Source of the DNA: Powellomyces hirtus
Taxonomy: Eukaryota > Chytridiomycota > Chytridiomycetes > Spizellomycetales > Powellomycetaceae
DNA: 64,000 nt
Assembly (NCBI GenBank): GCA_025526995.1
Contig: JAHLKG010000005.1
Span: forward strand, 62,001 to 126,000
Direction of reading: 5' to 3'
The position numbers and the translations under genes were made by a program. Each line of letters opens with the position of its first letter. Positions within the stretch are counted from its first letter, which is position 1. The notes under the pieces are model-generated. The model ran no database searches. It was not told the origin of the DNA and saw only the letters and a list, made by a program, of their open reading frames with translations. Of the stretch, positions 9,918 to 20,381 are shown in pieces.

Positions 9918-9954
9918 GAGCATCTTTAACGGCAGGCATTTAATTGTGGCACAG
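9918..9954 (+). repeat. Left TIR of element 1
   Basis: 37 bp, identical in reverse complement to 13419-13455. It is preceded by target duplication TAA at 9915-9917. Confidence 0.95.
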
Positions 9955-10128
9955 TCAAAATTTGAAGCCCGTGGTTCCCAAAGCACTGTTATAGGTGTGG
10001 CGCGGGGGCGCTATTTTGTACTAAGCGTCGCTACTTTCATGCGCCACAGTTCATATTTGAAACCGGTCGGCTCCCAGCTTTTAAAATAAAGCCTCCCAAC
10101 AGTTGGCCCGGTAAAGTTGCCTTTTGTC

Positions 10129-11184
10129 ATGGCAGACCCCATTATAGCATGAATTGCACAGTTGATTGCTCAAAACCCGCATTCTGTTGCTGCGCAAGCT
10201 TTGCTAAAACAGAACCCGGCCGCGTATACTGGAGCTACCTACACAGAATCTGGAGAAAGCAGCCTACTTGTCCCGCCTATACATTTCCCTTTGGCTTTAC
10301 CAGCTCCGCCACAGGCCGCACCGCTAACTCCACGCCAAACACTTGAACCGCAAGCGCAGGCCACACCTCCCTCAGAATCATCCTTGTGGCGTGGCGCAAG
10401 AGGAAAAGGGTTCTCCCGCACAGAAGACAAGCGCCTATGCGTGGTCTGGATTCAGATATCTGAGGACTCCATCACCGGCAACGAGCAGAAAGCGGATGCA
10501 TTTTGGAGTCAAATCCATAAGGTGTTCAACGACAATCCACCAGACGAAGCGCGGACCAGAAGCTCGCTGAAAAACCGCTGGGGGGTTGTGTCTCGCGCGG
10601 TTGCCAAATTCGCAGGACATATACGCTCAGCCACAGCTTGATTGCCCAGTGGCGCCACCAGAGACCAAATCGTGCTTCTAGGAGAAGACTTCTACTACGG
10701 AGCAGAAAAGCAAAAGTTTGTCCTGCTTCACGCCTACAATTTACTGCAGAACTGCCCCAGGTAAGCAATTAATTGCGTGGCAACATACTGCGTGATGCGT
10801 ACCTGCGTACTGCGTGGTAACGTTGTGCGTACCTGTGCGATGCGCACTGCGTGGTAAAGAAATGCTTTAACATCAACTCTATTTAGATTTATGGCAGACA
10901 GCGAGAAAACGCCACAAAAGGCAGCAGGAGAAGAGGACGAAGTCCGTCCAATTGGTATCAAACAAGCAAAGCGCCGACGAGATGAGGACTTACTGAAGGA
11001 TGAAGAGTTGGAACTTGTGAAACAACAGCTGGAAATACAGCAACGTGAGCTACAATTGAAGGAGAACGAGCAGCGTCTTAGCAGGGTGGAAAGACTGGTA
11101 CAGCTCTTTGGGCGTGAAAGCGCCATTGCTCAAAAGGCCTTGTCTCACTTGGCCAAAGAGCTGCAAACTGAGGATAGCAGCTAG
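10129..11184 (+). pseudogene. Element 1 ORF1: PIF-type Myb/SANT-like DNA-binding protein, broken by two TGA codons
   Basis: Two exons (10129-10760 and 10887-11184, GT-AG) give a 309-codon frame interrupted by TGA at 10150-10152 and 10639-10641. The N-terminal half is Pro/Ala-rich. The middle holds the Myb-like block seen in PIF ORF1 proteins (FSRTEDKRLCVVWIQIS, then FWSQIHKVFNDN, then RTRSSLKNRWGVVSRAVAKF). The second exon has the typical basic IKQAKRRRDED motif followed by a Gln/Glu-rich coiled coil. In PIF/Harbinger elements this protein helps bring the transposase to the TIRs. A later ATG at 10162 would bypass only the first stop. CGA-to-TGA is the simplest origin of both stops. Confidence 0.82.
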
Positions 11185-11252
11185 CGTGAATAAAAAACCT
11201 GTCTACCCGTTAAGGTAGCCACCGAGTTTAACGGTCGCTTTGCTTGGAACTT

Positions 11253-11719
11253 TCACCCGTTTCCTCCTTCTCCACTTCCTCCTTGCCCCGACGCCCCTTG
11301 CCCCGTCCCTCTTTGCCCCGTCCCCTCTTCTCCCCTCCTCCTCCCCTCCCCTTCCCTCCAAGCAAAGGCGCGGACCCATTTCTCTGCGTATGCGGTCACT
11401 TGATCAAATTTGGCCTGAGTTACAAGTTGCCGCAGTTAGTACAAACGAGATCAGCGGAAAATGATATTACACTTACCTTTGCCGCGGCCATATCCCAATT
11501 CACCTTGTCAAGGTGCTCCTTCATTGCCTCTTGGTAGAGGCGTGGGTACTGGCGCTGCAGCTGACGAAGCTGCACTGCGCGCCTTGCAACCTGATACAAA
11601 CAAATTAAGTGGTGTGTTATAAGCAGTATAGTAATTTAACAAATTACAAGAGCTGCTGCATTCTCTTCAGCTTGATGCTCAACGTCAGTTTGGACTCTCG
11701 CTTTCTTAGGGCGAGGCAT
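11253..11719 (-). CDS. Element 1 third gene: small basic protein with Gly-rich tail, unknown function
   Basis: Three exons with good GT-AG signals (11719-11648, 11590-11477, 11414-11253) give an uninterrupted 115-aa protein. It starts MPRPKKARVQTDVEHQAEEN. A helical segment follows (VARRAVQLRQLQRQYPRLYQ, EAMKEHLDKVNWDMAAAK), then AKFDQVTAYAEKWVRAFAW, then a repetitive Arg/Glu/Gly tail made of GTGQ-like units. I do not recognise the family. It lies between ORF1 and the transposase and so is inside the TIRs. Being intact while its two neighbours are broken is notable. Splice sites were inferred from frame continuity; the gene is not proven. Confidence 0.55.
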
Positions 11720-11919
11720 TGTGATGAGAAAACAGCGGGGCATTGCTACCCTAGTATAGTATAAGTATAAAAACGCTTTTGAGACATATTGACATGTGTC
11801 AAAGAAACAGTCAACCCTTTGAAGGAGTATATCAAAAGGTTCTAGTTTGCGTCGCACCCTTGCATGCTCTCATTGAGTCACACTGACATGTTTCAGGGAT
11901 CGCAAACGATTTATGCAAT

Positions 11920-13311
11920 TTATTGACCACCCTTCCATTCCCATAAGTGTTGTATTAGGTCTGCGCGCAACTGATGATGAAGCACAGAGTCATGCAATGT
12001 TTTTCTCCTTATTTGTTGCGATGTTTCTTCGTGACCGCCCAGAGAAATGTTAATGTCGGCAAAATCCTCTGCTATATCTTCCATTGCCGCATCTCCTTGA
12101 TCCTCGATAATCATGTTGTGCAAAATCACACAGGTCTTCATGATATTTCCCAGTTGCGCGCGATGCCACCCACGAGCGGGCCGGTGAATAATGTGCCATC
12201 GTGCTTGTAGTGCTCCAAAGGCACGCTCTATGTCTTTGCGCACTGCCTCTTGCATTTGAGCGAAAAACTTCTTCTTTTCGCAGTCAGGCTGTGAGAACGT
12301 CTGCACAAACATCGCTCAAGGAGGGTATATTCCATCCACCAAATAATATCCTAGTAGTAATGCTCTTCATGAGTATGTGCTATGCAATATTGTACCACGC
12401 AATGCGCAGGTACGCACCACGCACCACGCAACGCACCTTGAGTGTATTGACGTCCATTAATCTCGTAATCGAGGTTTGGTGTGCAACCAGCCAGTTGGTC
12501 ATCAAAGAGAGGGGAGCGGTCCAAGACATTAATGTCATTGTTAGCGCCGGGAACACCGAAAAAGCAATGCCAAATTCGTAAATCGTAGGTTGCAACCGCT
12601 TCCAAAATAATCGTCGGAACCTTTTCCTTGCCTTGAAACTGACCGGCCCACACTCGAGGACAGTTCTTCCATGCCCAGTGCATGCAGTCCAGAGAACCAA
12701 GCAGTCCAGGAAAACCACGTTGCCTGTTGATCCGCAATATATGATTTAGGTCATTTTGGTTTGGCGGTCTCAGGTAAGTAGCGGCATAGATGTGCACAAT
12801 GGCAGCACAAAAGCGGTGTAATGCAACTGTTGCAGTAGCTTCGGTGCAGCGAACGTACTCGTCCACAGCATCTGCTGCAACACCGTAGGCAAGCATGCGT
12901 AGTGCGGCAGTAAGCTTTTGTTCGGATGAGAGACCAGTAAGTCCTGTACAGTCACGACGCTATTGCAGAATTTGTGATTAAAACAAACATACTGCGTGGC
13001 CAACGGGTACTTAGTAGCGTACTTACTGGTTTAAAGTAACGGTCACTTTTGCACAGATCTGCTTGAATACGCAGGAAAAGCTGGCGTGACATTCGGAAGC
13101 GGCGCCTAAAATCCTTTTCACTGTAGATGCAATCAGCGCTGAAATAGTCTCGAAGTAGACGCTCTTGTCCTAGTGCCCTAAGGCGGTCACGATTGCGGAG
13201 GCGCTTTCTTGCTGTTTTTCTTTCCACATCTTCTTTTCGTTCCAGTCTCCGTTGTAAAATGCGCCTACCCCACTGCCTTGTATTGTACTTGGCCCAGAAT
13301 TTGTCAAGCAT
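11920..13311 (-). pseudogene. Element 1 PIF/Harbinger DDE transposase, one in-frame stop
   Basis: Three exons (13311-13027, 12959-12437, 12350-11920) give a 412-residue frame starting MLDKFWAKYN. The catalytic residues are visible: D in LLGSLDCMHWAW, D in GVPGANNDINVLDRSPLF, and E in IERAFGALQARW. The helix-turn-helix-like SSEQKLTAALRMLAYGVAAD segment precedes them. After the second intron the family block YYLVDGIYPxW is read as YYLVDGIYPP followed by TGA at 12318-12316. The TGA stands where family members have a conserved Trp (TGG), so it is a G-to-A change. The rest of the frame is intact. PGS1 ends on TGA, so recoding is unlikely. Confidence 0.88.
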
Positions 13312-13418
13312 GCTCGACCGGTCTATTTGGGCATTATTACAAGTAAAGCAAGAAATTAGCGTCAACGTGTAGGTTGGCAAGTGGGAACTTTAAAAATTCG
13401 GGGTTTCACACGTGACTG

Positions 13419-13455
13419 CTGTGCCACAATTAAATGCCTGCCGTTAAAGATGCTC
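13419..13455 (-). repeat. Right TIR of element 1
   Basis: Inverted copy of 9918-9954, followed by target duplication TAA at 13456-13458. Confidence 0.95.
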
Positions 13456-13476
13456 TAAGGGGATGTGACTGACTGA

Positions 13477-14106
13477 GGCGTGGTTTTTGCACTTTTTCCA
13501 CTCGACTTTTGAGATTGCCATCGAGACGCGCTTTACATAAGCTGTATGACTCGAGGTGTCGACTTTTGAAAGCGCGTTTTGGGGTTGGAGGTACTTTGAC
13601 TTTGCAGGTGATAAATGGCAACCAGATGGAACCAACTGGAACCAAAATCTCTAACATCCTGAGAAACGTGACTTTTCAGCTGATTGTCAGATGACTGTCA
13701 CTGGATGGTCATGTGGATGTCGAAAATAATGTGGCAATCTCAAAGTACCTCGGGAGGTCTTGCGAGTTTCAAAACGAGATGGCGTCTCTTGGGCGTGGTT
13801 TTTGCACTTTTTCCACTCGACTTTTGAGATTGCCATCGAGACGCGCTTTACATAAGCTGTATGACTCGAGGTGTCGACTTTTGAAAGCGCATTTTGGGGT
13901 TGGAGGTACTTTGACTTTGCAGGTGCTAAATGGCAACCAGATGGAACCAACTGGAACCAAAATCTCTAACATCCTGAGAAACGTGACTTTTCAGCTGATT
14001 GTCAGATGACTGTCACTGGATGGTCATGTGGATGTCGAAAATAATGTGGCAATCTCAAAGTACCTCGGGAGGTCTCGCGAGTTTCAAAACGAGATGGCGT
14101 CTCTTG
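13477..14106. repeat. Tandem duplication of the element 2 left end (2 x 315 bp)
   Basis: 13477-13791 and 13792-14106 are nearly identical; I see only a few substitutions, such as CGCG versus CGCA near 13577/13892. Each copy begins GGCGTGGTTTTTGCACTTTT and ends GATGGCGTCTCTTG. The element therefore has two possible left termini. Confidence 0.92.
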
Positions 14107-14170
14107 CTCCATCCAACCACTGTCCATCCAATATCCATCCAACCCCGAAAACAACGTCAGCACGTTCAGC

Positions 14171-15246
14171 ATGAACGTGAATCAACCCTATGGAGCTCTC
14201 ACCACTGAAAGGGCAGACATACTCGCAAAGTTGGCCAGCAAACACCCTGACATCGTGCAGCGGCATCACCAGCAGCTCGTTCAACACATCCGGTCGCCTA
14301 TGGCCACTATTACTGTGGATGACAACCTTCCTATATCTGTACAAGACGACCTCCCTACATGGCAAGCAGCTGTTTCCGGAGCCCCTGAGGTGATAGAGGT
14401 CACATCTGCACCGCAAGCAGTGGTAGACGTCAAGGCTGCAAAGGTCCCACGAAGCCGGAAGGTCAAAAGTGAGGAAAGTAAGCGACGGTGCTGGAATGAC
14501 GAGGAGATGATCGCCTTGGTCGACTTGAACAATAAGTACAAGATTTGGGTCAAAGGCAAAGTGCGAGCATCCGACTTCAATGGGATCTTCCTCTCGAAAG
14601 AGAAAGAGGCATATATGCAGCGGCATCTGTCGGAAACAGGCTTGACGGCAAAGTGGACTTATGACCAGGTAGGAAACGCCCACAATGTCAACGATGTTGA
14701 CGATGTCGACGAGATCTCAAAGCCGTCGATCTTTAATGTATTGTGCTATAGTGCAAGGCGAAGTATAACAACATTATGACCGAATATTGGAAAGCCAAAG
14801 ATGCGCTGAAGGCTACTGGAGGGTGCGGGTTGCAGTTTTATCGTGAGAGATACTGCTGGTGGGACAAAATGGAGGGAGCGAACACGGGAAACGCCTCCAT
14901 TGAGCCCGACTACGTCTATGATAATGGCGTTGAGCGAGATAGTACTCCCGAAAGATCTCGGAAACGATATGCCAGCTCCCAAGATGATGACGACACCACC
15001 CAAGAAACACCGCCGCGATCTTCCCTACGCCGGAAGAAGACGACATCACCTTTGGCGGAGATCACCCAGATGAGCAAGGAACTCAACCAAGAGAATAGAG
15101 AATTCATGGCACAGTTGGAATTGCAACGGGAGGAAAGGGAAGCCAAACGCCAGGTTGAGATGAGGCAAGCAATGGGTGAATTGATGGCACACATGGGTGC
15201 AACTATGTTGGCGGCTGTTGCAGATGTACTAAACAAAAATAAATAA
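14171..15246 (+). CDS. Element 2 ORF1: Myb/SANT-like DNA-binding protein
   Basis: Two exons (14171-14668, 14752-15246) encode 330 aa without stops. Residues ~100-200 hold a Myb/SANT-like domain: RRCWNDEEMIALVDLNNKYK, then FNGIFLSKEKEAYMQ, then WTYDQ joined across the intron to CKAKYNNIMTEYWKAKDALK. The domain ends with FYRERYCWWDKMEG. The C-terminal third is Ser/Arg-rich and then a Gln/Glu/Arg coiled coil (LELQREEREAKRQVEMRQAM). The W...E...W..CKxKYxxL pattern is that of the trihelix/Myb-like domain in plant and fungal Harbinger ORF1. Likely role: DNA-binding accessory factor of the transposase. It starts just inside the duplicated left terminal region. Confidence 0.8.
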
Positions 15247-15405
15247 ATAAATATGTTATGTAAATGAATCTACGCCATTGGAATACTGGTATAAGGAATC
15301 CCTGTCAATGGCACAGTGGCAATGCGTGCAATAGCTCGCGTGTATAAATTCATCACAGCTGTTGAAAACCTGTCAAATTCTTTAACAATTTAGGCCACCG
15401 ACCAC

Positions 15406-15482
15406 ATCGACAACTTGCCGTAGCCTTCAACGTTTGCAATCATCGACGACATCGACGACTTGCCAAAATCTGCAACGTTTCC
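15406..15482. repeat. Repeat array A of element 2 (about two 36-bp units)
   Basis: Units at 15406 (ATCGACAACTTGCCGTAGCC...) and 15451 (ATCGACGACTTGCCAAAATC...) are each followed by CAACGTTT. They share the ATCGACGAYTT...GCC...CAACGT pattern with the arrays at 16583 and 18403. The array sits in the gap between ORF1 and the first cargo gene. Confidence 0.7.
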
Positions 15483-15583
15483 AACCTATCGGACCTTCCC
15501 CAACGTCAAACGTCTCCCTACCTCTCCAATCTTTCTTTACGCGCGCGCTCCACGGAAAATGCCCCAGAGGGAAGCTCTTGACC

Positions 15584-16477
15584 ATGCACTCTGCCATGTG
15601 GATCCTGCAGGCATACCGGGAGTGGCTTATGACACCGGGATGTACGATTGGTCAATTTCCGATTGTAACACATGGGGAGCTGTTTTGGGCAAGATCCTTG
15701 TGGAATGGCTTTGTCGCCCTGATCGGATGCTCCTGCCCCCCCCCCCCCCCGGATGCTCTGAAGCTTCTATACTCAAGATCTCATACCATTGCCGCGCCCC
15801 CCGGTTCCCGAGCGCAAGGATGGCTTACGAAGGCTGTCTCGCCGAGGCCGGGTTTCAGCGTGGGTGGAGCCAACACCATCCCCCATATCCCACTACCACC
15901 CCAGATTGGCCAGTCACTTCAAACCATCTTCGCTTCTCTAGATGTGGTCCCCTCCGCCAGGGCAGAGCGCATAGGGTTTTACAGAAAAGCCACAGATGTG
16001 GGTGCACATATCAAACCCGCTCCTCTTGGAGGAATTGTTGAAACGGATCCCGCAGACGGTGTCACTCTGAAAACGGTCCGTTGGGTTCTTAATGGGTCGG
16101 GCCCCAGGAGCAAGACGTGGAATTTCCACGAATGGGATAACCAGAATAGGCAACAAGCGGTTGCAATCTTGGAATCAGCAAAGACCACCATCAGAGCCCT
16201 CTACGATGCCCACAGCCGCCTGCAGCAACTAATGCTTGACTGCAATTCTCCAGTAGTCACTGATCCCTTAGGATATCACCGCCTTCGTGCTGTTGGCGCC
16301 ATCTCTCGTCTGCTAGAGAGCCTTACCATTATCCAGCTCGACGGCGCCTTTGTGTTCATGGCAGACATGAACAACACTGATATATGCGTAGCCTTCGGGA
16401 ATAACCGTGCCGTAGCACCTTCACGGTGGGGACCCTCTCGTCACCTTCCGCATCAATGGTTTATGGATCCCCTTTAA
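15584..16477 (+). CDS. Element 2 cargo gene 1: unknown protein
   Basis: A single-exon 297-aa frame from ATG 15584; the frame is open further upstream but lacks an ATG. I do not recognise the family. There is no signal peptide. The first third is Trp/Leu-rich (MHSAMWILQAYREWLMTPG). A run of 15 C at 15736-15750 encodes PPPPP and could hide a frameshift. The second half (RWVLNGSGPRSKTWNFHEWD; ILESAKTTIRALYDAHSRLQ) looks like a folded, partly helical domain. It is convergent with the dioxygenase gene, with the 36-bp array between their 3' ends. Its place inside the element argues for a cargo or accessory role, but no function can be assigned. Confidence 0.5.
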   Translation: MHSAMWILQAYREWLMTPGCTIGQFPIVTHGELFWARSLWNGFVALIGCSCPPPPPDALKLLYSRSHTIAAPPGSRAQGWLTKAVSPRPGFSVGGANTIPHIPLPPQIGQSLQTIFASLDVVPSARAERIGFYRKATDVGAHIKPAPLGGIVETDPADGVTLKTVRWVLNGSGPRSKTWNFHEWDNQNRQQAVAILESAKTTIRALYDAHSRLQQLMLDCNSPVVTDPLGYHRLRAVGAISRLLESLTIIQLDGAFVFMADMNNTDICVAFGNNRAVAPSRWGPSRHLPHQWFMDPL

Positions 16478-16582
16478 GTGCATTGGTTATGTCTCTGTAT
16501 TAGTGTATTAGTATTAGTATAAGGTCTTTCAATATATTCCGTTTCACCACATATGTCCGTCTGTTAGCTGATGTGCGTAAGA

Positions 16583-16942
16583 CGACGATTTCGAGAAGCC
16601 GCCAACGTCTGCCATCATCGACGATTTCGAGAAGCCGCCAACGTCTGCAATCATCGACGATTTTGAGAAGCCGCCAACGTCTGCCATCATCGACGATTTC
16701 GAGAAGCCGCCAACGTCTGCGATCATCAACGATTTCGAGAAGCCGCCAACGTCTGCGATCATCGACGATTTCGAGAAGCCGCCAACGTCTGCCATCATCG
16801 ACGATTTCGAGAAGCCGCCAACGTCTGCCATCATCGACGATTTCGAGAAGCCGCCAACGTCTGCCATCATCGACGATTTCGAGAAGCCGCCAACGTCTGC
16901 CATCATCGACGATTTCGAGAAGCCGCCAACGTCTGTGATAAC
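16583..16942. repeat. Repeat array B of element 2: ten 36-bp tandem units
   Basis: Ten near-perfect copies of CGACGATTTCGAGAAGCCGC followed by CAACGTCTGCCATCAT. Because 36 is divisible by three, both strands stay open (12-residue repeats such as MMADVGGFSKSS), but no gene is implied. The array lies in the gap between the convergent 3' ends of the two cargo genes. The consensus is related to arrays A and C. Confidence 0.95.
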
Positions 16943-16948
16943 GGTCCT

Positions 16949-18143
16949 CTATGTCGGAATGCCAGTCAAAATCAACTGGTGCATCTTGAAGACAATCGTG
17001 AAGCGTTCAATGCCTTTCCACTTCCGTACAAAGTGCTCCAGCGCGAATGAACGGATGAAGATAATGTCGCCGCGTTGGAAAGGGAACTTGAGTTGCAAGT
17101 CAGCGAGGCAGAATTCTCCTTCACGAAAGTCACCGAGACATACAACGGCACACCAACCGTAACGGGAGTCGCGCAAGTCATGGTGTTTCTTCACGTACTC
17201 GTTTATGACGAGAACCATCATTGCAAACGTCTGGTTGCAAGTGTTTGGGCCCCAAAACCCGATGCCCGACCGTGGCATTCGTGCCCATGCCTTTCTGTAA
17301 GCCGCTGCCATCTCGGGATCCAGCGCGGCAAAGCATTTCGTGACGAGTAAGCACATCATGCGCACGGGAGTGGACTGGATCCAATCTTGCGTGGCATTGA
17401 GTTGTAGGTTGCTGCTACGGGACTCGCGCGACACCGTGGGGACCTTCGACGCTTGCGCCTGCCAAACGCCGAGGTGATAAATGCCGTGCAGTTTGGGCTG
17501 GTCATGAAACGTGACTTGACGGTTATCAGGTTTCACCGTTGGCAAGCTGCCAGGGGGGGTAATTCCGCAAGAAACGTCGTAACTCAATTGTCAGATGATC
17601 GCGGAGGATTTCGGGGAGTGCGCCAGGTATGTAACAGCACAAACGGCTCTTCTTGCAGTCGGTGGCGATAAACAGGGTCCTTGGGATCTCAAGATAGTTC
17701 TCGGCTTCTTGTATGCTCTCCTCGAACTCCTCTTTGGGTGATAAAGGCTTCCCCGAGACTGGCGATATCGTTGATGACCGTGCTTGTTGTTTATTCTGTT
17801 GCTGCGCCAGATCATCCAGTGAAACGGTCAAGTGCTGATGCCACGCCGTTCGTGCCAGTGCGTCCTCCAAACGGCGTATAACGCAGTTGTAGAACACCGG
17901 GAATGGCTTGTCAGAGACAATCAGCGCAGAATTCTCGTGCGTGGGGGACCGTATGCTCCACGGCTTTTCCCCCATACTGCACTCGAGTGGAACCCCGTTC
18001 ACCAAGGCGTCCATTCTGCGCCATTCATCAGAGGCAAGTCCATCAGACAGTTCCTGGGCGTACGTTGGGGGGATGCCTAGGTTGCTCTTGCATCTTTGTC
18101 GCTTGCGCTTGCCATGGGCCATCCTGTTCTGCGAGACCAGCAT
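16949..18143 (-). CDS. Element 2 cargo gene 2: TET/JBP-like 2OG-Fe(II) dioxygenase, one frameshift
   Basis: The frame begins near 18143 (MLVSQNRMAHGKRKRQR; ATG 18115 is an alternative) with a basic, possibly nuclear-targeting start. A run of seven G (17553-17559) shifts the frame once, before the dioxygenase core; about 397 aa in total. The C-terminal core has HxD in KKHHDLRDS, then YGWCAVVCLGDF, then LKFPFQRGDIIFIRSFALEH, giving the distal His, then GIERFTIVFK, giving the Arg expected to bind 2-oxoglutarate. This order and the GDIIxIRS...LEH signature resemble the fungal 2OG-FeII oxygenase group related to TET/JBP, which oxidises methylated or thymine bases in DNA. The substrate here is unknown. 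The frameshift may be a sequencing error in a homopolymer. Confidence 0.65.
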
Positions 18144-18402
18144 TAGTTTCGAGATGCCGATATGTGCGATAACCTTCAAGCTCTGGGACACTGTCTATCA
18201 CCTCGGGTTACTGCCTGCCACACTGATTGCCGCGAAAATGCAAGCAAGATGGTATGCCGGATGACAAGAAAGATGGCAAACTCGTTTGGTACAAGCGCGC
18301 GCCTGCACAAATATCTAACCCACGCGCTTCACGTGTGTATCTGAGATGTGCAGACATACACAATAACGTATCTACGAGAAATTCACGGCCATTGACAATA
18401 TC

Positions 18403-18542
18403 GACGACTTCGAAATCTCGCCAACATCTCCGATATTGACGACTTCGAAATCTCGCCAACATCTTCGATATCAGCGGCTTTGAAATCTCGCCAACATCTT
18501 CGATATCGACGACTTTGAAATCTCGTCAACATCTTCAATAAT
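18403..18542. repeat. Repeat array C of element 2: four 35-bp units
   Basis: Four copies of GACGACTTCGAAATCTCGCC followed by AACATCTTCGATATC, at 18403, 18438, 18473 and 18508. Clearly related to arrays A and B. It lies in the gap between the dioxygenase 5' end and the transposase 3' end. Confidence 0.9.
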
Positions 18543-18570
18543 GCAGATTACGGCCAGCGCAGTGATGTAT

Positions 18571-19802
18571 TTAATAAACAGGGCTAGAGTACAGTTCCTG
18601 TGCAATCCGCATGCGCAGCCCCTTCATTCCCTCATCTTCCTCATCGTCCAGCAATTCTGCATTGGCTTCTGACGTTGCGTTGTCGTCGGTGGTTGTTGGC
18701 ACTGCCCACTCTTCCATGAAAGCACTGTCTGCTCGAGCACTACAAAGGTTATGCAGTACCATACAAGCGAGTGCTACTTTTGCAGCTTGTTTGGGACTCT
18801 CCTGCTGTTGATGCAGTAACACTCGCCAACGTCCCTTAAGACGCCCGAACGCCTGTTCCACAATAATCCGGGTGGAAGAGAAAATGAAATTGAATGAAGT
18901 CTCATACGGCGGCTGCCTGACCCGAGTTGGAAAAGGGACCATCATGTACCGACTGAGTTGATAACCGGAATCTCCGATCAGGAAATGACCTCCTGGCCAT
19001 ATTTTGTCATTTCGAGCGTCGATTGCAATGCTTGAGTTGCGCCAAATGCGACAATCAGGAACGCTGCCAGGCCAACCGATGACGACCTACATCGGATACA
19101 GATGAAACTTAAAGTTAAAATCATCATCAATGGCATCGGAAAGTCGTCGATGTTGTTAATAACACCTACGTGACGGAAGATCCCTTCAGCATCCACGACA
19201 GCTTGACATCCAATAGATTGATAACTCTTTCTGTTGGTGTATGCATTGTGAATCTCATCACCTGCAGGCTTCAGAATGCGAAAGTGCGTCCCGTCAATGG
19301 CACCAATGACGTTTTCGATGCCTCGTTTGGATGCAAAGCCGTCCGAGATGCACTTCCAACCTTCTAGGTCATGCAAAGCAGGGTACCGCACCGTTCGAGA
19401 ATACAGAACCTCCTCGATGGCCTCTGCAACGTCTTTGCAGCAGTGAAATGCAGTGGATTTCGTAACTCCAAAGGAATCTGCAACAACGCGCAGTGGAATC
19501 CCGGATCCCCATCTGTAGAGGGCAATAGCGAGTCGCTTTTTCACAGGAACACCCCCTTTAACAGTGTCTTTCCAAAGGTTAACGCGCAGCTTATTGACCA
19601 GCCAATGGAACAGAGGCTTGGACACTCTGAACCTGCCCAGAAACTCCCTGTTTGTACAATCAGAGACGAGGTTCCATATGCTCCACGTTCCGTTTGGGGA
19701 TCGACGAGGGCGACGCAGGTGACGGGCTTCTTCCTGTTGGAGCTGACGTATACTCGCGTACATCACCGGAAGAGGTACGGCATCAAAACAGTAAAAACTC
19801 AT
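18571..19802 (-). CDS. Element 2 PIF/Harbinger DDE transposase (HARBI1-like nuclease)
   Basis: Two exons (19802-19170, 19086-18571) encode 382 aa with no internal stop. The N-terminal helix-turn-helix region (KKRLAIALYRWGSGIPLRVV, FGVTKSTAFHCCKDV) is followed by the DDE nuclease. The catalytic residues are D in VIGAIDGTHFRIL, D in VIGWPGSVPDCRIWRNS, formed across the splice junction, and E in IIVEQAFGRLKGRWRVL. The IGDSGYQLSRYMMVPF block is also typical. The frame is intact, so this copy could encode an active transposase. It is clearly different from the element 1 transposase, so the two elements belong to different Harbinger lineages. A frame upstream of ATG 19802 is open but lacks a Met. 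Confidence 0.88.
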
Positions 19803-20381
19803 TTTGAAATCGTGTTTGAGATGGCCATATGTCAAAAGGAGTTTCAAAAGGGGTGCAAAAACTGTTAATATTTGAGTTCCACCTTTTTGATTATAACTGC
19901 AAAAACGGCCTTTTTTGAAATTGTGTTTGAGAACGTGTTTTGAGACGCGGTCCAGAGTTGTGTGTAACAGGCTGTTGGCCCATTACCATCTCAAAAAGCA
20001 CATGACAGAAACGTGACTTTTACTAATTGATTTCTCGTTCAAAAGTGATCTCAAATAAGAAAAAACCAGGCCTGAGTGACTGACTGAGTGAGCCTGTCTG
20101 TATCTAGCATCCATCCTCTTTCATCATTCACATGACATCACATCCATGGGCGATGGGGGAACAACGAGATGAGCATTCGACAACTAATAATGAATGGTCC
20201 CTCACTCACTCAGTCAGTCACGTGTAGCTTGTGCCGTGACTCACTCGATGAGACAACTGCGGTCCCTAGAAAGAGGAGCATTACTCGTCAACGCAGAGTG
20301 TGAGAGACTGATGAGACTGAGACTGAGAGTGAGCAGGCCCGTTGCCCATCTCCCATTACCCTCGACACAACACTCGCCACA

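Follow-up and report, generated by a model that had tools for sequence, protein, structure and literature searches.

The window analysed here is a 64,000-nucleotide stretch of the genome of the chytrid Powellomyces hirtus (Chytridiomycota, Spizellomycetales; contig JAHLKG010000005.1, positions 62,001 to 126,000 of the forward strand). At positions 13477 to 20072 it holds a DNA transposon of the PIF/Harbinger class. In addition to the two core genes of this class, a DDE transposase and a Myb/SANT-like open reading frame 1 (ORF1), the element carries a gene for what is most likely a divergent TET/JBP-like 2-oxoglutarate- and Fe(II)-dependent (2OG-Fe(II)) dioxygenase, as well as an orphan gene, referred to as gene 2. 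A preliminary description of the window had proposed a Harbinger element with these four genes, and our analysis confirms this. The boundaries and genes are the following, in window coordinates and with the strand where one applies:

13474..13476, left target-site duplication TGA, within CTGAG
13477..20072, the Harbinger element as present in the window; all five full-length copies found have these termini and a TNA target duplication
13477..13488, plus strand, left terminal inverted repeat GGCGTGGTTTTT, complementary to the right end at 11 of its 12 bases
13477..14106, plus strand, left terminal region, a tandem duplication of 2 x 315 bp (99% matches)
14171..15246, plus strand, ORF1, Myb/SANT-like, identified via the protein P0008; exons 14171-14668 and 14752-15246, inferred intron 14669-14751
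~15424..16477, plus strand, gene 2, orphan protein of ~348 amino acids, frame shifted in the window copy
16949..18122, minus strand, TET/JBP-like 2OG-Fe(II) dioxygenase of ~390 amino acids; the frame is open in copy C6 and is shifted by one base near position 17556 here
18571..19802, minus strand, Harbinger DDE transposase; exons ~19802-19164 and 19086-18571, separated by a putative intron
20061..20072, minus strand, right terminal inverted repeat AAAAACCAGGCC
20073..20075, right target-site duplication TGA

The element thus runs from GGCGTGGTTTTT to AAAAACCAGGCC, with imperfect inverted ends of 12 bp. Searching the P. hirtus genome with 13477-20072 returned three further uninterrupted copies (C6, C7 and C26) and one interrupted copy (C1), which insertions have split into three pieces across ~26 kb; these copy counts are lower bounds. 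Full-length copies share the end pair GGCGTGGTTTTT / GGCCTGGTTTTT, accompanied by a 3-bp TNA duplication, and the sole deviation is a single base at the left end of C26. The duplicated triplet is TGA on both sides in the window, C6, C7 and C26, and TCA on both sides in C1, in all five cases in a CTNAG context. The left 315 bp occur once in C6, C7, C26 and C1 and twice in the window copy (13477-13791 and 13792-14106). Uncorrected pairwise differences between full-length copies amount to 1.0-2.3%.

From left to right, the genes are arranged as ORF1 (+), gene 2 (+), dioxygenase (-) and transposase (-). The same ends, the same gene order and TNA duplications in all five full-length copies indicate that the dioxygenase travels with the element. 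Judged from these copies and duplications, the gene sits inside a mobile Harbinger unit, in agreement with the earlier proposal that it is Harbinger cargo. Seven short loci (L018-L024) contain both end regions without the genes and fix the termini independently of the full-length copies. A clear TNA duplication is present at three of them, and the flanks of the other four are worn or dissimilar. With lengths of ~0.5-0.86 kb, these loci resemble miniature inverted-repeat transposable elements derived from the larger one.

The assignment to PIF/Harbinger is based on the transposase, the accessory protein and the short inverted ends with their 3-bp duplication. Spliced by hand across one putative intron, the transposase matches DDE_Tnp_4 over the whole profile (E 1.9e-35); exon 2 alone yields E 1.8e-24. 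Its frames are free of stops in the window, and its exons lack stops and frame shifts in four of the five Harbinger copies, with the first two bases of exon 2 unaligned in C7; C6 has two stops. ORF1 was assigned through P0008, the annotated ORF1 of the C1 copy, which matches Myb_DNA-bind_4 with E 1.2e-5 and 26.1 bits, just under the cut-off of 27, and is also listed with this domain in its annotation. Scanned separately against Pfam, the two ORF1 exons of the window returned no family. The public gene model behind P0008 is a fusion of ORF1 and gene 2, comprising 583 amino acids. Gene 2 is open over its whole frame in C7 and in a further copy, C23, relative to which the window copy is frame shifted close to a C run. 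Pfam scans gave no credible family for gene 2, and the one homologue search made with it returned P. hirtus proteins only.

The dioxygenase of the window has Tet_JBP as its best Pfam match (E 0.0022, 17.7 bits against a cut-off of 34.9). Tet_JBP is likewise the top and only plausible match for P0001, which represents the C6 frame (E 8.7e-4), for the C23 copy (E 1.5e-4), for the Geranomyces proteins P0005 (E 3.3e-4) and P0006 (E 3.3e-3); P0003, a model with missing parts, has no such match. P0001 contains the expected Fe(II)/2OG set HxD...H...R in the form of H313, D315, H363 and R373. In profile searches of the PDB, Naegleria Tet was the only 2OG oxygenase matched, and in this alignment the distal H, the R and the next H align without gaps; the other match was to an unrelated chain, auxin response factor 7 (E 0.89). 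What counts for TET/JBP is thus that five proteins agree in this match, together with the residues, and not any single score. Taken together, the enzyme is most likely a divergent TET/JBP-like protein, and we use the suffix "-like" because no match reaches the Pfam Tet_JBP cut-off. The TET/JBP identity claimed in the preliminary description therefore stands as to catalytic pattern and best match, while every match stays below threshold.

Geranomyces michiganensis belongs to the family Powellomycetaceae, as does P. hirtus. Homologues of the dioxygenase were found among the P. hirtus copies, in two G. michiganensis proteins (42% and 33% identity) and in a 106-amino-acid metagenome fragment (P0009). 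An alignment search for wider homologues, in which the best 8000 candidates were scored, gave six proteins, namely five already known and P0009; neither this search nor the other dioxygenase homologue searches returned a dikaryan TET/JBP relative. Four more distant TET/JBP-like relatives (L042-L048) lie at C19:625105, C3:1363153, C20:397768 and C8:757529, mostly with stops or frame breaks. The one on C3 is found ~5-6 kb from C5-methyltransferase fragments.

Further copies of the dioxygenase are found next to genes for Fanzor proteins. A Fanzor gene is common to three loci, C23:195-203 kb (L016), C34:34-40 kb (L017) and C1:348-352 kb (L025), and the C23 protein matches the solved Fanzor of Spizellomyces punctatus with E 5.6e-38. 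All three also hold a dynein light chain gene, recognised from Pfam matches in C23 and C34 and, in C1, from similarity at the DNA level; the three may represent a duplicated locus or a composite element. The dioxygenase is present in C23 and C34 (91-92% DNA identity), and C23 additionally holds gene 2 (85%). Pieces of ORF1 occur as well, with its last ~110 bp in C23 and a 98-bp piece of 97% identity at the C1 Fanzor locus. We therefore interpret the Fanzor loci as a duplicated locus that contains decayed remains of an older Harbinger insertion, and not as an independent association of the cargo, although the cargo could also have moved to another element. The preliminary description had regarded dioxygenase copies outside any Harbinger unit, with ends that exclude the gene, as speaking against its proposal. 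C23 and C34 do place the gene beside Fanzor, yet ORF1 remnants persist at C23 and C1 and the ends of the element include the dioxygenase. With ORF1 pieces at two of the three Fanzor loci, a reading of C23 and C34 as refuting the Harbinger association was set aside.

The full-length copies also preserve a record of mutation. Counting only alignment columns that show two states and are covered by four or more copies, and taking the majority instead of an outgroup to polarise changes, we found 206 singleton differences, 143 of which are C-to-T changes (on either strand). CpG sites account for 106 of these 143 changes, as opposed to 732 of 3040 C sites (24%; p 3e-36), and five of the eight tabulated nonsense events are CpG C-to-T changes. 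Mutation at CpA, as in repeat-induced point mutation, was considered and set aside, as the bias is at CpG. The observed/expected ratio of CpG is 0.31-0.55 in L021-L024, 0.84-0.90 in L018-L020 and 1.01 in the window outside 10.7-20.1 kb. Because the CpG C-to-T signature is strong, element copies were probably methylated, and the record fits CpG methylation directed at repeats.

In line with such methylation, C5-methyltransferase domains exceeded the Pfam cut-off in 14 matches, spread over nine loci. Two of the matches (C13:798 kb and C50:21 kb) have equal scores and open-frame lengths, perhaps through recent duplication or assembly redundancy. Early-diverging fungi have been described as having near-undetectable 5-methylcytosine (5mC; PMC13297926), with Phycomyces as a known exception (PMC11258239). 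The P. hirtus repeats with their clear CpG-deamination decay, together with C5-methyltransferase domains at nine loci, bear on this description.

With moderate confidence, we propose that the element is a chytrid Harbinger transposon carrying a divergent TET/JBP-like dioxygenase and an orphan gene, and that the enzyme relieves 5mC silencing of the element. In this model, CpG methylation by the host would target the element, and its dioxygenase would oxidise 5mC on element DNA. Oxidation would relieve the silencing of the transposase genes and thereby raise the chance of transposition. Copies that have lost the enzyme, or have one of insufficient strength, would decay through deamination of 5mC. 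The anti-silencing role by demethylation is a plausible best guess. The element marks a place to seek 5mC and oxidised 5mC in a chytrid, and its copies with open and with broken enzyme genes may serve as a natural comparison.

Several observations weigh against this proposal. The dioxygenase frame is open in only one of seven copies (C6), and none of the Harbinger copies has all four genes open. The CpG signature also means that the enzyme failed to keep methylation-linked decay from the copies, or at least to shield them fully. The flanks of L020, L021 and L023 are CpG-depleted too, and the singleton record depends on a majority rule for its direction. In three-way comparisons, the Fanzor loci show the same bias, with 15/23 and 12/15 C-to-T changes at CpG; the bias is thus general and not special to the Harbinger element. 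As for the enzyme itself, all five proteins with a Tet_JBP match score 17.1-21.5 bits, below the curated cut-off. None of the five matches in a genome-wide Tet_JBP search exceeded it, and the E. coli control of this search also gave sub-cut-off matches, so that single weak Tet_JBP scores prove little. The PDB matches to Naegleria Tet are sub-threshold (E 0.44-1.4), and structure prediction of the catalytic region reached a mean predicted local distance difference test score (pLDDT) of only 38.7. Finally, some residues deviate. Counted from the first His and from the Arg of HxD...H...R, the position R+6, aromatic in known TETs (CcTet Phe391), is Lys; H+11 (CcTet Asp337) is Cys; and the decayed C19 relative has Glu instead of Asp at H+5.

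The broken frames raise the question whether the dioxygenase gene is a passenger, trapped in the Harbinger element and hitch-hiking without aiding transposition, which is now decaying. We consider this unlikely. In its favour, six of seven dioxygenase copies are broken and four of five transposase copies are free of stops and frame shifts. Some comparisons among Harbinger copies also appear unconstrained: with few counts, the ratio of nonsynonymous to synonymous divergence (dN/dS) of the dioxygenase among young copies is mixed (0.30-3.2; 3.2 for C6 against the window, 0.97 for C6 against C7), and the transposase shows no constraint among them. In contrast, comparisons of Harbinger copies with C23 or C34 yield dioxygenase dN/dS values of 0.28-0.47 despite decaying terminal branches (Fisher p 1.8e-6 to 6e-3; the ten pairs are not independent of each other). 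The ratio between C23 and C34 is 0.54, and that of gene 2 of the Harbinger copies against C23 is 0.65-0.74; codons containing a gap or a stop did not enter these counts. The nature of the breaks also argues against a mere passenger. A single-base indel each disrupts the frame in the window (in a G run), C7 and C1, and these indels could in part be assembly errors; C26 and C23 have a stop at codon 182, and C34 has a stop at codon 332 plus an indel. The dioxygenase is moreover kept in all five full-length copies found, and G. michiganensis has homologues. Low dN/dS against the older C23 and C34 copies, combined with broken or mixed young copies, points to past purifying selection on the enzyme gene followed by recent decay.

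A second alternative concerns the substrate: the enzyme may act chiefly on N6-methyladenine (6mA), or add a modification as CMD1 does, instead of oxidising 5mC. The chytrids reported to have a high 6mA content, >1%, include P. hirtus (PMC11258239), so that 6mA stays a possible substrate, and CcTet oxidises both 5mC and 6mA (PMC11040006). Lys at R+6 and Cys at H+11, which differ from known TETs, can be read in the same direction. Other positions can be numbered after CcTet as given in PMC12730594 and PMC11040006. D318 of P0001, at H+5, takes the place of CcTet Gly331, TET2 Asn1387, NgTet1 Asp234 and CMD1 Asp350, and H381, at R+8, that of CcTet Arg393, TET2 His1904 and NgTet1 His297. Of the residues expected to contact the base, Asp at H+5 and His at R+8 thus agree with TET/JBP, whereas the Lys in place of an aromatic residue at R+6 does not. 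H313, D315, D318, R373 and H381 (P0001 numbering) are conserved in every covering row of our five-row alignment A5, which is without the L017 dioxygenase and the C19 relative L042 (the latter was in alignment A2). The model P0004 is mis-annotated and does not align at its C-terminus. In conventional TETs, the side chain at H+5 reportedly clashes with 6mA (PMC11040006), and this position is Asp in all five rows of A5. The substitutions accumulated by the copies likewise point to 5mC, and we consider a different main substrate distinctly unlikely.

The low scores would also be compatible with membership in another 2OG-Fe(II) dioxygenase family, with a likeness to TET/JBP in just the pattern of the catalytic strands, particularly as the control genome reaches similar levels. 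Pfam scans with limits from 0.1 to 10, whose program filters drop most weak matches, returned no other 2OG-Fe(II) family. The HxDxxD motif fits TET/JBP, and so do the H-10-R and R-8-H spacings, which the Naegleria alignment shows too, and the neighbouring transposon genes; we consider another family improbable. That the dioxygenase is a separate insertion or a host gene merely beside Harbinger genes, as its adjacency to Fanzor genes instead of a Harbinger transposase in C23 and C34 could suggest, is practically refuted by five dispersed full-length copies, in each of which the gene lies inside the shared ends and the element is bordered by target duplications, and by the ORF1 pieces, which suggest that the Fanzor loci are Harbinger remnants.

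Immediately to the left of the element, at 9918-13455, lies a second and distinct Harbinger family ("element 1"), which ends ~20 bp before it. Element 1 has perfect 37-bp inverted repeats and a TAA duplication. Its transposase is of the Plant_tran type and is broken up over different frames; a further ORF weakly resembles NAM-associated proteins, with a score under the cut-off. The preliminary description had noted that this neighbour lacks the dioxygenase gene. These features do not support a reading of it as a version of the main element without that gene. As a member of a different family, its lack of the dioxygenase shows neither loss nor gain.

The non-coding parts of the transposon contain a short motif, which is tandemly repeated at two places:

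14708..14730, plus strand, single element motif inside the putative ORF1 intron
16583..16935, minus strand, tandem array with a 36-bp repeat unit; the element motif occurs 10 times, at 16581-16927
18398..18540, minus strand, tandem array with a 35-bp repeat unit; the element motif occurs 4 times

The motif pattern, GRCGRSWTYTCRAARNCGTCGAT, was derived from the element itself and has 15 matches in the window at up to 3 mismatches, compared to a mean of 0.05 after shuffling. All 15 fall within the element and outside its exons: the stretch between gene 2 and the dioxygenase contains 10, that between the dioxygenase and the transposase 4, and the ORF1 intron a single one. The middle array varies between copies, containing 10 motifs in the window, 5 each in C6, C7 and C26, ~2 in C1 and 2 in C23; C26 and C1 have extra weak matches (3 mismatches) in the transposase part. 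A stricter pattern matched the genome 22 times, against once for the control, with 18 matches in Harbinger copies and 4 at Fanzor loci, and 48 kb of 17 other loci gave no match. One scenario would be self-targeted demethylation, in which the Myb/SANT-like ORF1 protein or the gene 2 product binds the 23-bp motif and brings the TET-like enzyme to the element alone. We regard this scenario as rather unlikely. If it holds, the motif shared with Fanzor loci would let other transposons share the protection.

How does the P. hirtus element relate to known systems? The preliminary description referred to TET/JBP-like genes linked to KDZ transposons. The view that such cargo occurs on KDZ elements only is out of date: in three fungal lineages, TET/JBP genes are described from 11 DNA transposon lineages, among them Harbinger in rusts (Kojima 2025, PMC12730594). 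Transposon-borne TET/JBP genes are described there from Basidiomycota and Pezizomycetes, as repeated in a 2026 review (PMC13297926), and the words chytrid, Powellomyces and Fanzor are absent from the main text of PMC12730594. Our literature search, which covered few subscription journals, found P. hirtus named and no description of this element; nor did it find the chytrid host, the classical Harbinger architecture, the decay signature or the tandem motif arrays in print. A genome search for KDZ transposases found none, but its controls gave no match either, so that this is not proof of absence.

The closest counterpart is PHISTA, the TET-positive Harbinger of Puccinia and Austropuccinia, which has TA duplications and a third protein that is not Myb/SANT (PMC12730594). 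Both are Harbinger-class DDE transposons with a TET/JBP dioxygenase and a third protein between their termini. Unlike PHISTA, the P. hirtus element has TNA duplications, a Myb/SANT-like ORF1, the orphan gene 2 and a chytrid host, and its dioxygenase returned no dikaryan relative. TET-positive Harbingers are thus already known from rusts, and it is the chytrid host and the classical Harbinger architecture that differ. The proposal of an independent recruitment, made in the preliminary description, gains partial support from these differences. In its core, the element resembles canonical Harbinger and Nuwa elements, which encode a transposase and a Myb/SANT protein and make 3-bp duplications (PMC12730594). 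The two core genes, the 3-bp duplication and the short inverted ends are shared, whereas the dioxygenase, gene 2 and the motif arrays are extra in P. hirtus. The AG-type TET/JBP proteins of Kyakuja/Zisupton and CcTet are likewise cargo of DNA transposons with HxD...H...R, but differ at H+5 (Asp here, Gly331 in CcTet) and at H+11 (Cys here, Asp337 in CcTet). The existence of a TET-like Harbinger in Chytridiomycota that has the two core proteins of classical members and duplicates 3 bp suggests that the capture of DNA-demodifying enzymes extends beyond Dikarya and may have occurred more than once in the Harbinger class.

The motif arrays recall the VANDAL21/VANC system of Arabidopsis. VANC is a DNA-binding protein and is not known to be a dioxygenase. 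It binds short motifs in variable, same-orientation tandem arrays of its own transposon, which leads to loss of methylation, and these arrays sit in introns and intergenic parts of the transposon (PMC5735166). VANDAL elements belong to the MuDR family (PMC12730594). In both systems, a short, family-specific motif forms variable tandem arrays of one orientation in intronic and intergenic DNA, and the transposon presumably counteracts methylation of itself. In contrast to the MuDR-type element with its DNA-binding VANC, P. hirtus combines a Harbinger element with a TET-like enzyme. The likeness is one of architecture only, and ordinary minisatellite growth accounts for the arrays equally well. 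If self-targeting by the TET-like enzyme does take place, the P. hirtus element would represent an enzymatic counterpart of the Arabidopsis VANC system in an early-diverging fungus.

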